From Oscillospiraceae bacterium (GTDB lineage Bacteria > Bacillota > Clostridia > Oscillospirales > JAAYXM01), in NCBI GenBank assembly GCA_017439555.1, contig JAFSIZ010000090.1:1-44698 (forward strand): a stretch of DNA of 44,698 nt. The letters are read 5' to 3'. Both the position numbers and the translations under genes were made by a program. The first letter of the stretch is position 1. The number at the start of each line of letters is the position of its first letter. The notes beneath the pieces are model-generated. The model saw nothing but the letters and a program-made list of their open reading frames with translations. It did no database searches and was not told the origin of the DNA. Shown piece after piece: positions 23,656-39,179 of this stretch.

Positions 23656-23758
23656 GGCAGAGTAGGAAATATCGGGTCAAGTGCTGTGTGAACGGGGAGT
23701 TGTCACACGGACGAAAGTGTGTATGACACACTGCCGTGATGTTTCCGCATCCCGCTGC
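23656..23758 (+). ncRNA. Tetrahydrofolate (THF) riboswitch aptamer
   Basis: The roughly 103-nt leader segment matches the THF riboswitch in order and content: AGAGTAG near the 5' end, GGTCAAGTG, the GTGTGAACGGG segment, GTCACACGGACGAA, and a 3' GCATCCCGCTGC closing with the 5' GCAG (P1). This class binds reduced folates in Firmicutes and controls folT and folate-synthesis genes. The gene downstream encodes a folate-type ECF S component, which agrees. Confidence 0.92.
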
Positions 23759-23768
23759 GAACGACTGT

Positions 23769-36480: not shown

Positions 36481-37828
36481 ATAACAATATTGATGCAAAA
36501 TAAAAATAGATAAGAAGCGAAATTGAGTCTACTATCGTCGTTATGAATGGGCTCGCCATTACAGCCGGGTCAAAGCCGATTTTTTTCGACAATATCGGAA
36601 GTGAGCATCCGACAAACTTTGCCGTTACAACAGTCACGGCAAGCGCAAGGCTTACAACAAAGGCGACCGACGTTCCGACACGATCAAGAAGCAGGAGCTT
36701 CACGAAATTTGCCGCAGCAAGCGTTATTCCACACATAACCGAAACACGGATCTCTTTCCACTGAACGCGGAACATATCGCAAAATTCAATTTCATCAAGC
36801 GACAAACCTCGGATTACAGCAACAGATGCCTGAGAACCGGAGTTGCCGCCCGTACCCATAAGCATCGGTATATATGCCGCGAGCACCCCGGTTGCGGCAA
36901 GCGCAGATTCAAACTGCGTTATGATTATTCCTGTAAATGTGGAAGAAAGCATCAAAAGCAGCAACCACGGTATCCTGGCTTTCCAAAGCTCAAAGGCACT
37001 CGTTTTCAGATAGGGCTTATCCGTCGGGGTTATAGCCGCCATCTTTTCGATATCCTCTGTAGCCTCTTCCCTGATAACATCAATAGCATCGTCAATGGTT
37101 ACAATACCGACAAGGCGGTTTTCGCTATCGACGACAGGAAATGCCAAAAGACCGTATTTTGCAAATTTGTTTGCTACATCCTCCCTGTCATCTTCTGTAT
37201 TAACGGAAAGAACATTCTCCTCCATTATATCGCGGATGCAATCATCGTCATCAGCCATAAGCAAGCGGCGAACAGTTACAATTCCTATGAGCTTTCTGTC
37301 TTTTTCCGTTACATAACAGGAATAGATGGTTTCTTTATCAACCCCTGAACGACGAAGGTTTTTAATCGCTTCGCTGACCGTGAGATCAGGTTTGAAGCTT
37401 ACATATTCCGTCGTCATTATGCTGCCGGCACTGTCATCGGGGTATTTCAATATTTCGTTTATCATTTTGCGCATCTCAGGGTCAGTCTGCTTCAAGATAC
37501 GCTTTACAACATTAGCCGGCATCTCCTCGATGATGTCAACTGCATCATCGACATATAACTCATTCACAACCTCGCGAAGCTCACTGTCCGAAAAACCACG
37601 AATCAGAATCTCCTGCACATCCGCGTCCATCTCGACAAAAACTTCCGCTGCAAGCTCTTTTGAAAGAAGCCTGAAAAGCAATGATATCCGCTCTCCCGGA
37701 ATCTCTTCAAGAAGCGCCGCAACATCCGGTGGAGCCATAGTGTTCATTACATCACGCAAAGTTGCAAACTTACGCTCTTCGATGAGAGTAAGTATCATTT
37801 TTTCAATTGTTGCAGTTATCTCTCCCAT
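36479..37828 (-). CDS. mgtE: Magnesium transporter MgtE
   Basis: A 449-residue Mg2+ channel/transporter, normal length for the family. Residues about 1-130 are the N-domain (the LLEEIPGERISLLFRLL repeat region), about 135-255 hold two CBS domains (SIMTTEYVSFKPDLTVSEAI, then DEDRE-type second unit) that sense Mg2+, and about 280-449 form five membrane spans. The pore motif PMLMGTGGNSGSQASVAVIRG is present. ATG 37828 follows AAAGGAG; the longer reading adds 15 unlikely residues. It has its own promoter and a long structured leader (37829-38006), suggesting RNA-level control. Confidence 0.94.
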   Translation of the reverse strand: MGEITATIEKMILTLIEERKFATLRDVMNTMAPPDVAALLEEIPGERISLLFRLLSKELAAEVFVEMDADVQEILIRGFSDSELREVVNELYVDDAVDIIEEMPANVVKRILKQTDPEMRKMINEILKYPDDSAGSIMTTEYVSFKPDLTVSEAIKNLRRSGVDKETIYSCYVTEKDRKLIGIVTVRRLLMADDDDCIRDIMEENVLSVNTEDDREDVANKFAKYGLLAFPVVDSENRLVGIVTIDDAIDVIREEATEDIEKMAAITPTDKPYLKTSAFELWKARIPWLLLLMLSSTFTGIIITQFESALAATGVLAAYIPMLMGTGGNSGSQASVAVIRGLSLDEIEFCDMFRVQWKEIRVSVMCGITLAAANFVKLLLLDRVGTSVAFVVSLALAVTVVTAKFVGCSLPILSKKIGFDPAVMASPFITTIVDSISLLIYFYFASILL

Positions 37829-38006
37829 AATATCCTTTTCTCCTTTCAATAATTTTAGGAAACAAAGGCACAATTACATAAGGGAGAAGTATTAAAGCTC
37901 AAATAACGGACACGTGACAGTCCGCCTCATACTTCGCCCTTTTGATGTGCTTCGCCCGCCACCTGCGTCCATTATTTTCACCTACCTCATATTATTGGAT
38001 TTCATA
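37829..38006 (-). ncRNA. Structured 5' leader of mgtE, unassigned
   Basis: The minus-strand leader is about 178 nt. AAGGGCGAAGTAT (37942-37930) can pair with ATACTTCTCCCTT (37892-37880) over 13 bp with one mismatch. It encloses a CGGAC/GTCCG hairpin. Upstream, GTGGC GGGCGAA GCAC forms a short hairpin whose loop repeats the GGGCGAAG of the long stem, so alternative pairing with CTTCTCCC is possible. I see neither the M-box landmarks expected before mgtE nor a terminator T-run. It may be a metal-responsive element of another kind. Confidence 0.55.
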
Positions 38007-38012
38007 CATTAA

Positions 38013-38042
38013 AGCATACACCTGAAACACCGGTTTTGTCAA
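38013..38042 (-). promoter_or_regulatory. Promoter of mgtE
   Basis: On the minus strand, consensus TTGACA (38042-38037), an 18-nt spacer and TATGCT (38018-38013) lie just after the nagA stop (38046). The start of transcription is expected near 38006, about 180 nt before the mgtE start codon. Confidence 0.7.
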
Positions 38043-38045
38043 TAG

Positions 38046-39179
38046 TTAAGCCTCGTAAACTATCCTTCCGTCAACAATTGTCATAACTACATTGAAGTCA
38101 TCATCAACAACTGTCAGATGTGCACGCTTTCCCGGAGCTATCGACCCGATTTTATCATACATTCCAAGCGCTTCTGCCGGATTTTTTGTCACCCCAAGCA
38201 TTGCATCCTCAAGCGACATACCAAGCTTTGTTACGACATTTCTGAGCGCGACATTTGTTCTGAGCGATGAGCCCGCAAGGTTTCCTTCCGCAATTCTTGC
38301 AATTCCGTCTTTCACAATAATCGGCAACGGCCCGAATTGATACTCACCGTCAGCCAGGCCGGCTGCTCCGATAGAATCTGTTATGAATACAATTTTATCC
38401 TTTCCCTTGCATCGAAGCGCAACCTTCACCGCTTCCGGAGCAACATGGATAAAATCGCATATTATCTCATTATAGACATCATCTCTCACAAGGCTTGCTC
38501 CAACAACGCCGGGTTCCCGATGATGCAGTGGCGACATACAGTTATATGTATGGATTGCAACTGACGCACCTGCATCAAACGCTGCATTTGCCTCAGCACA
38601 CGTCGCTGCCGAATGGCCGCACGCAACCTTTATTCCTTTTGAAGCAGCATATTCCATCGCGGAATATGCTCCTTCCGTCTCCGGCGCTATTGCGATTACA
38701 CGCAGGTTTCCATTCCCGGCTTCTATAAGCCTGTCAATATCTTTGATAGCCGGATTGGCAAGAAGGTTTTCGTTATGCGCACCGCGAAGCTTATGCGAGA
38801 GAAACGGTCCCTCGAGATATATACCGGCAATACGCGCACCGCTTGTACCCTCTCTTATCCGTTTTGCCACAAGCTTTTCAATCTCAACAAGATTGTCAAT
38901 TGTATCAGTTACCGTTGTCACGCAAAATTCAGCAACTCCGTTTGAAGCATAAAACTCAGACAATTTGTCAAACTCTTCAAATGAAGCTGTATTTGCCTCA
39001 AAGCCTATCGCTCCGTGTGTGTGCATATCGATAAAGCCCGGCAGAGCTATATACCCGGAAAAATCGAGCTCGGCATCACCGCCATTCGAAACTGATTTGA
39101 AAACTCCGTTTTCAATCTCAATTGTATCCGCATCCAGAATATGCCCGTCGCTGTATGCGCGCCCTACTTTAATTTTCAT
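38046..39179 (-). CDS. nagA: N-acetylglucosamine-6-phosphate deacetylase
   Basis: A 377-residue amidohydrolase that deacetylates GlcNAc-6-phosphate to glucosamine-6-phosphate in amino-sugar use and cell-wall recycling. Metal and catalytic positions are visible: HTH in DMHTHGAIGFE (about 52-54), the Glu of LEGPFLSHKLRGAHN, CGHSAAT, IHTYNCM and the catalytic Asp in FITDSIGAAG. ATG 39179 follows GAGGTG. The usual partner nagB is not adjacent. An inverted repeat lies in the divergent region shared with the YitT gene. Confidence 0.94.
   Translation of the reverse strand: MKIKVGRAYSDGHILDADTIEIENGVFKSVSNGGDAELDFSGYIALPGFIDMHTHGAIGFEANTASFEEFDKLSEFYASNGVAEFCVTTVTDTIDNLVEIEKLVAKRIREGTSGARIAGIYLEGPFLSHKLRGAHNENLLANPAIKDIDRLIEAGNGNLRVIAIAPETEGAYSAMEYAASKGIKVACGHSAATCAEANAAFDAGASVAIHTYNCMSPLHHREPGVVGASLVRDDVYNEIICDFIHVAPEAVKVALRCKGKDKIVFITDSIGAAGLADGEYQFGPLPIIVKDGIARIAEGNLAGSSLRTNVALRNVVTKLGMSLEDAMLGVTKNPAEALGMYDKIGSIAPGKRAHLTVVDDDFNVVMTIVDGRIVYEA

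Follow-up and report, generated by a model that had tools for sequence, protein, structure and literature searches.

The window, by which we mean the whole 44,698-nucleotide stretch of DNA analysed here, carries on its minus strand a gene for an Mg2+ transporter, mgtE, whose ATG start codon lies at 37831; all features of the mgtE leader are likewise on this strand. The upstream neighbour, a nagA-like amidohydrolase gene, ends at 38046. As claimed in an earlier note made from the letters of this DNA, mgtE has its own near-consensus promoter, with a 10/12 match to the sigma-70 consensus and an 18-nt spacer, and this promoter is kept in the alignment with four other leader-bearing genomes of the genus. 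Transcription is predicted from its position to start near 38005, which would make the leader about 175 nt long. The central part of this leader, overlooked in the earlier note, is a short upstream open reading frame (uORF) with a Shine-Dalgarno sequence of its own. The features, including three predicted long-range helices (P1, P2 and P3), are as follows.

38013-38042, minus strand: mgtE promoter, TTGACA (38042-38037) and TATGCT (38018-38013), sigma-70 type.
37979-37987, minus strand: uORF Shine-Dalgarno sequence, AGGTAGGTG.
37892-37972, minus strand: uORF of 26 codons, MDAGGGRSTSKGRSMRRTVTCPLFEL, stop codon TAA at 37894-37892; from conserved start and coding statistics.
37965-37977, minus strand: 5' strand of P1 (A), AAATAATGGACGC, including the uORF start codon; from covariation in 41 sequences and the native-versus-swapped test (see below).
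37901-37913, minus strand: 3' strand of P1 (A'), GTGTCCGTTATTT; from covariation, minimum free energy (MFE) fold and native-versus-swapped test; P1 energy -17.7 kcal/mol.
37929-37963, minus strand: 5' strand of P2 (B), GGTGGCGGGCGAAGCACATCAAAAGGGCGAAGTAT, uORF codons 4-15; from the native-versus-swapped test.
37858-37892, minus strand: 3' strand of P2 (C), ATACTTCTCCCTTATGTAATTGTGCCTTTGTTTCC, including the genus-conserved TTGTGCCTTTGNTTCC.
37834-37873, minus strand: P3, the core of C, TTGTGCCTTTGTTTCCT (37873-37857), with the mgtE Shine-Dalgarno sequence, AAGGAGAAAAGG (37845-37834); from MFE fold and native-versus-swapped test; -11.0 kcal/mol.
37907-37924, minus strand: local hairpin CGGAC...GTCCG, a competitor of P1 for A', kept in most of the genus.
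36482-37831, minus strand: mgtE, Mg2+ transporter with MgtE_N, CBS and MgtE domains (TIGR00400, 466.7 bits; Pfam).

Comparison with relatives gives good support to the notion that the uORF is coding. Its start is conserved as MDAG..GRS, with variants MDAG, MDAD, MDAA, MDSG and similar; where the start codon is not AUG it is GUG, an acidic residue occupies position 2 in 105 of 106 leaders, and an AGGTGA-like Shine-Dalgarno sequence precedes the frame in nearly all relatives. In 83 of 88 sequences, the ATG is separated from a conserved GGNCGA by 27, 30, 33 or 36 nt, indicating that length changes involve whole codons. Up to strand A', the uORF frame has 4 stops in 1414 codons, whereas the two other frames have 29 in 1400 and 130 in 1372. 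It is these whole-codon indels, together with the frame-specific lack of stops, that lead us to take the uORF as coding. Conservation of the peptide ends after about 14 codons; the tail is variable and overall length ranges from 20 to 44 aa, so the full-length product is not a conserved protein. The uORF contains no run of one amino acid. The peptide predicted for the window carries a single early acidic residue, the one at position 2, and a single proline, at position 22.

The distribution of the leader was determined by scanning the GTDB bacterial and archaeal genome collection for mgtE and examining the 80 closest loci. A homologous uORF leader precedes mgtE in 71 of these, and the uORF is found before mgtE in all four of the other genus genomes. 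Among the nine loci lacking a homologous uORF, an M-box takes its place in four (L075, L076, L091 and L093), and in two (L023 and L090) there is a short ORF that is more divergent but likewise preceded by a Shine-Dalgarno sequence. A covariance model of the uORF plus P1, run against 391 genomes from the class, returned 41 matches, at most one site per genome. Of the best 30 of these, 28 are followed by mgtE and the remaining pair, L109 (E 3.7e-9) and L117, by an mgtA-type gene encoding an Mg2+-translocating P-type ATPase. With E values above about 5e-4, the matches L125-L127, L129, L130 and L132-L134 fall within other genes and are apparently false, while L128 and L131, in the same E-value range, are true leaders. 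Further mgtA leaders (L136/L137 and L138) are built alike although their sequences differ; the P1 core of L138, for instance, has gone from GACGC/GCGUC to GACUC/GAGUC. Four mgtA leaders carry all three helices. One leader type, as defined by these predicted features, is common to the unrelated Mg2+ importer genes mgtE and mgtA; before mgtA it often stands in tandem with an M-box.

The leader of the window folds only mildly better than chance when taken as a single sequence (MFE -48.3 kcal/mol, z -2.05; 11 of 200 shuffles equally good). The MFE structure contains P1, in which the uORF start pairs with 37913-37901, and P3. The earlier note had singled out a 13-bp stem between AAGGGCGAAGTAT (37941-37929) and ATACTTCTCCCTT (37892-37880). 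This stem is present, with one mismatch and an energy of -16.3 kcal/mol, but it is not part of the MFE structure, and its two arms turned out to be the inner part of a longer conserved helix, P2 (-28.0 kcal/mol in the window), which would join uORF codons 4-14 to strand C just before mgtE. The letters of the hairpin formed by CGGAC (37924-37920) and GTCCG (37911-37907) were read correctly; across relatives, this competitor of P1 has weaker statistical support than the helices. A second copy of GGGCGAAG, also pointed out in the note, does exist at 37957-37950, but it is peculiar to the genome of the window, relatives having GGTAGTAG, and the proposed rivalry between the two copies is not conserved. 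What is conserved is a rivalry of the uORF codons and the mgtE Shine-Dalgarno sequence for strand C. The broader expectation of mutually exclusive pairings upstream of an Mg2+ transporter gene is thereby borne out, in the form of P2 versus P3, as is that of conservation and covariation among relatives, seen in the leader homologues and in P1.

In P1, the uORF start pairs with a strand about 60 nt downstream. In an alignment of 41 sequences, 84% of cells pair and eight base pairs have both partners substituted; P1 scores 0.293 for covariation, as compared to 0.190 for shuffled alignments (reached in 0 of 500) and at most 0.11 for slid registers. For strand C, anchoring by a position weight matrix misplaced the strand in many sequences, and the column signal obtained in this way was weak (z 3.6 and 4.2 for two flanking pairs; shifted registers gave nothing of this strength). 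For this reason a native-versus-swapped test was adopted, in which the native strands of 72-75 leaders, close relatives having been removed, are compared with GC-matched strands of other leaders. Kolmogorov-Smirnov p values were 1.1e-23 for P1, 1.2e-13 for P2 and 5.2e-11 for P3, and 0.15 to 1.0 for six controls; since the leaders are related, and this pruning takes away only part of their phylogenetic dependence, the p values overstate independence. An early control pairing the uORF start region with C was not neutral, apparently because it included the uORF Shine-Dalgarno sequence, which resembles that of mgtE; the GC-matched controls were flat. Median energies are -19.6, -23.2 and -14.4 kcal/mol for P1, P2 and P3, respectively. 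P2 has been replaced along its full length in L117 (GGCACAAAAUCUGA/UCAGAUUUUGUGUC), L115 (ACCAAUUAUGUC/GGCAUAGUUGGU) and L128 (GACAUAAAAC/GUUUUAUGUC), and has been rebuilt by complementary changes in a further distant relative, L109. In 58 of 72 leaders, P2 and P3 overlap by 4 nt or more within C, so that the two would be mutually exclusive, and in 59 the pairs of P3 involve the Shine-Dalgarno core. P1 and P2 could form a pseudoknot together or be formed in turn. Taken as a whole, the comparative data make a well supported case for a predicted RNA switch with a coding uORF.

In agreement with the note's view that the leader is not an M-box, the M-box model (RF00380) is unmatched in the window at the gathering score, in the leader at E<=10 and in the whole genome. 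The wider search that the note had proposed, with all models of Rfam 15, returned nothing for the leader at the gathering score and matches of chance level only at E<=10. When the window and 40 homologous loci were searched, the only matches bearing on the leader region were M-boxes located upstream of the uORF or replacing it, and no family covered the leader itself. Elsewhere in the window or in these loci, matches to a tetrahydrofolate (THF) riboswitch, tRNA, 5S and T-box were obtained; the THF riboswitch aptamer is in the window at 23656-23759 on the plus strand (85.9 bits). Neither an M-box nor CorA was found in the genome of the window (assembly about 84% complete). By all the sequence evidence, the mgtE leader is a conserved, functional-looking cis-regulatory leader other than an M-box.

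The M-box and the uORF leader do occur together in other genomes. In L014, L109, L117, G025, G060 and G073/G101, the uORF leader is immediately preceded by an M-box of the same strand, which places the two in tandem on a single mRNA; in L014, the M-box (1604-1764) and the uORF leader (at about 1826) stand in tandem before mgtE. M-boxes in tandem with a uORF leader (L109, L117, L153, L154 and L136) score about 95-108 bits, compared with about 150 elsewhere, as if they had diverged. The regions downstream of 30 M-boxes were surveyed in one sample of 245 genomes. In 15 of the 28 cases with a recognisable main gene, a short ORF preceded by a Shine-Dalgarno sequence and starting with AUG/GUG-GAY was found between M-box and main gene, where shuffling predicts 0.51 such cases; the survey mixed high- and low-scoring M-boxes. 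These kin uORFs start with MD-x-[D/G]-P (MDADPG, MDTDPD, MDCDPD, MDFDPLP, MDPGPLP, MDAGPS, MDVGPY, MDTGPVP and similar), and the genes that follow are mgtE, mgtA and, as judged by eye from their N-termini, corA and a PRC-barrel-like gene. Loci with an M-box and, frequently, an MD-x-[D/G]-P ORF are L145, L148, L150, L152, L156-L158 and L165-L174. At L169, L171 and L172, M-box and MD.. uORF precede a putative PRC-barrel gene (MKKLTSFFLSKVLYRK..) and no standard Mg2+ importer.

We consider it probable that the leader is an MgtL-like leader-peptide attenuator of mgtE acting by Shine-Dalgarno sequestration. RNA initiated at about 38005 would carry the uORF with its start codon in P1 and codons 4-15 (strand B) in P2 with C. 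As long as the uORF is untranslated, or its translation is aborted early, B would hold C, leaving the mgtE ribosome site free and allowing MgtE to be made. Ribosomes on the uORF would cover B and release C, and P3 would then shut the mgtE Shine-Dalgarno sequence and prevent MgtE synthesis. The likely signal is cytoplasmic Mg2+ read via the ribosome, as in MgtL: with sufficient Mg2+ the uORF would be translated and the importer turned off, whereas in low Mg2+ translation would fail and the importer be turned on. The direction of control, Mg2+ as the signal and the ribosome as the sensor are all inferred. No terminator-like site is present in the window's leader, which rules out transcription attenuation there, and the architecture points to Shine-Dalgarno sequestration, rather than Rho-dependent termination, as the output.

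The earlier note had taken the alternative pairings as what a riboswitch would show, and in an orphan riboswitch P1 and P2 might indeed make up a pseudoknot aptamer for Mg2+ or a different metal, controlling mgtE via C, with the ORF incidental or a by-product. The strong conserved pairing, the pseudoknot topology and the restriction of the best matches to Mg2+ transporter genes would all suit such an element. A plain ligand-binding riboswitch is nonetheless hard to reconcile with a core that is a short ORF, where a good Shine-Dalgarno sequence stands before the ATG, length changes by whole codons and in-frame stops are depleted within the conserved block; moreover, the unpaired part has no large invariant core such as M-boxes have. 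The sign of the response also speaks against it: a P1/P2 structure stabilised by metal would open, not close, the importer gene. Failure of translation in low Mg2+ should have the right sign for the switch, and direct stabilisation of P1/P2 by Mg2+ is expected to push it the wrong way unless translation dominates. An orphan riboswitch thus appears unlikely.

Attenuation through the uORF might also respond to a cue other than Mg2+, such as translation capacity, tRNA, the state of EF-P or ABC-F proteins or another cation, and serve Mg2+ transporters indirectly. EttA and bL31 also affect translation of the MgtL type (PMC11282234, PMC11552253), and the lack of a single-amino-acid run in the uORF is compatible with this idea. 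We regard it as quite unlikely, and favour Mg2+ as the signal, because the controlled genes are unrelated Mg2+ importers (mgtE, mgtA, corA) and because the leader stands beside, or replaces, the Mg2+-sensing M-box. How the window's leader would sense Mg2+ may differ from the enteric case. The acidic/proline destabilisation known for MgtL should be weak here since the peptide has no early proline, and P1 opening or the rate of initiation may be involved instead. The amino acids themselves may not matter, as conservation of MDA and GT largely coincides with the strands of P1 and P2.

It is very improbable that the uORF makes a working small protein, for example a peptide regulating MgtE, with the RNA structure merely controlling uORF translation. 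Such a role would fit the start codon inside P1, the Shine-Dalgarno sequence and the conserved N-terminus, and there is a parallel in the M-box-linked conserved uORFs of Mycobacterium, whose peptide function is unknown (PMC12810186); however, only about 14 codons are conserved here, with tail and length (20-44 aa) free, no hydrophobic segment is shared, and C pairs both with the uORF codons and with the downstream Shine-Dalgarno sequence. Chance secondary structure devoid of function, which the single-sequence z of -2.05 might have suggested, is already refuted by the conservation and covariation seen in many Clostridia families.

A wider proposal, to which we give about an even chance, is that of a class-wide, undescribed family of Clostridia leaders that sense Mg2+ through the ribosome engaged on an MD-x-[D/G] mini-ORF. 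Such leaders would serve mgtE, mgtA and corA, on their own in some lineages and, in others, downstream of an M-box as a second stage operating at translation, with the uORF codons keeping the transporter Shine-Dalgarno sequence open. To our knowledge, no Mg2+ control is known for Clostridia Mg2+ transporter genes that lack an M-box, and those with an M-box have been taken to be controlled by it alone. The finding of related mini-genes before MgtE, MgtA and CorA genes across Clostridia suggests that uORF-based control of magnesium uptake is widespread, and the likeness of the kin peptides to MgtL suggests that ribosome-based reading of Mg2+ extends widely beyond Enterobacteria. No published description of the Clostridia uORF leader was found in the open-access literature. 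We file the leader, absent from Rfam 15 and undescribed as far as found, with leader-peptide control of Mg2+ importers.

Among known systems, the M-box (RF00380) is found in leaders of the same genes (mgtE, mgtA and corA), where it replaces or accompanies the uORF leader. The latter differs in being unmatched by RF00380, in having no intrinsic terminator after the structure and in containing a putatively translated uORF. In erm-type translational attenuators, the presence of a ribosome on the leader ORF settles which of two pairings forms, and in one of them the downstream Shine-Dalgarno sequence is masked. Occupancy of the leader ORF would likewise decide access to the downstream Shine-Dalgarno sequence in the Clostridia leader, whose sequence and genes are unrelated; here, however, C would be held by the uORF codons themselves, and translation should repress rather than induce. 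The Thioalkalivibrio "mgtE motif" (SRC-65-1, PMC11109978) is a structured mgtE leader with Shine-Dalgarno sequence and start codon in its last stem. It is set apart, going by its description, in being reported only in Thioalkalivibrio (Gammaproteobacteria) and with no uORF described. In Mycobacterium, a conserved uORF (uORF2) lies downstream of an M-box and Shine-Dalgarno masking is involved; the peptide is mycobacteria-specific, with a proline at position 7, the M-box controls the uORF and the downstream gene is pe20 (PMC12810186). The uORF and the masking are shared with the Clostridia leader, while peptide and arrangement are different.

The closest parallels are MgtL/mgtA and CorL/corA of Escherichia and Salmonella. 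In enterics, low Mg2+ impairs translation of the acidic/proline leader peptide and raises mgtA expression, and high Mg2+ restores translation and represses (PMC11552253, PMC11282234). The Clostridia leader resembles these systems in having a uORF, equipped with a Shine-Dalgarno sequence and probably translated, between the promoter and an Mg2+ importer gene, and in having two exclusive RNA folds, one of them involving the uORF; in both, translation of the uORF is expected to repress. E. coli MgtL, as read from MG1655, starts with MEPDP, an acidic/proline start resembling those of the kin uORFs before M-box genes in Clostridia, and sequence similarity is limited to this start motif. The start-codon helix P1 is absent from the E. 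coli mgtA leader, which was checked for the same helices. The outputs differ as well, being Rho-dependent termination in enterics (PMC11552253) and, in the Clostridia leader, presumed sequestration of the Shine-Dalgarno sequence by a strand otherwise held by the uORF codons. If the class-wide reading is true, the leader family would be a Gram-positive counterpart of MgtL, either independently arisen or very old.
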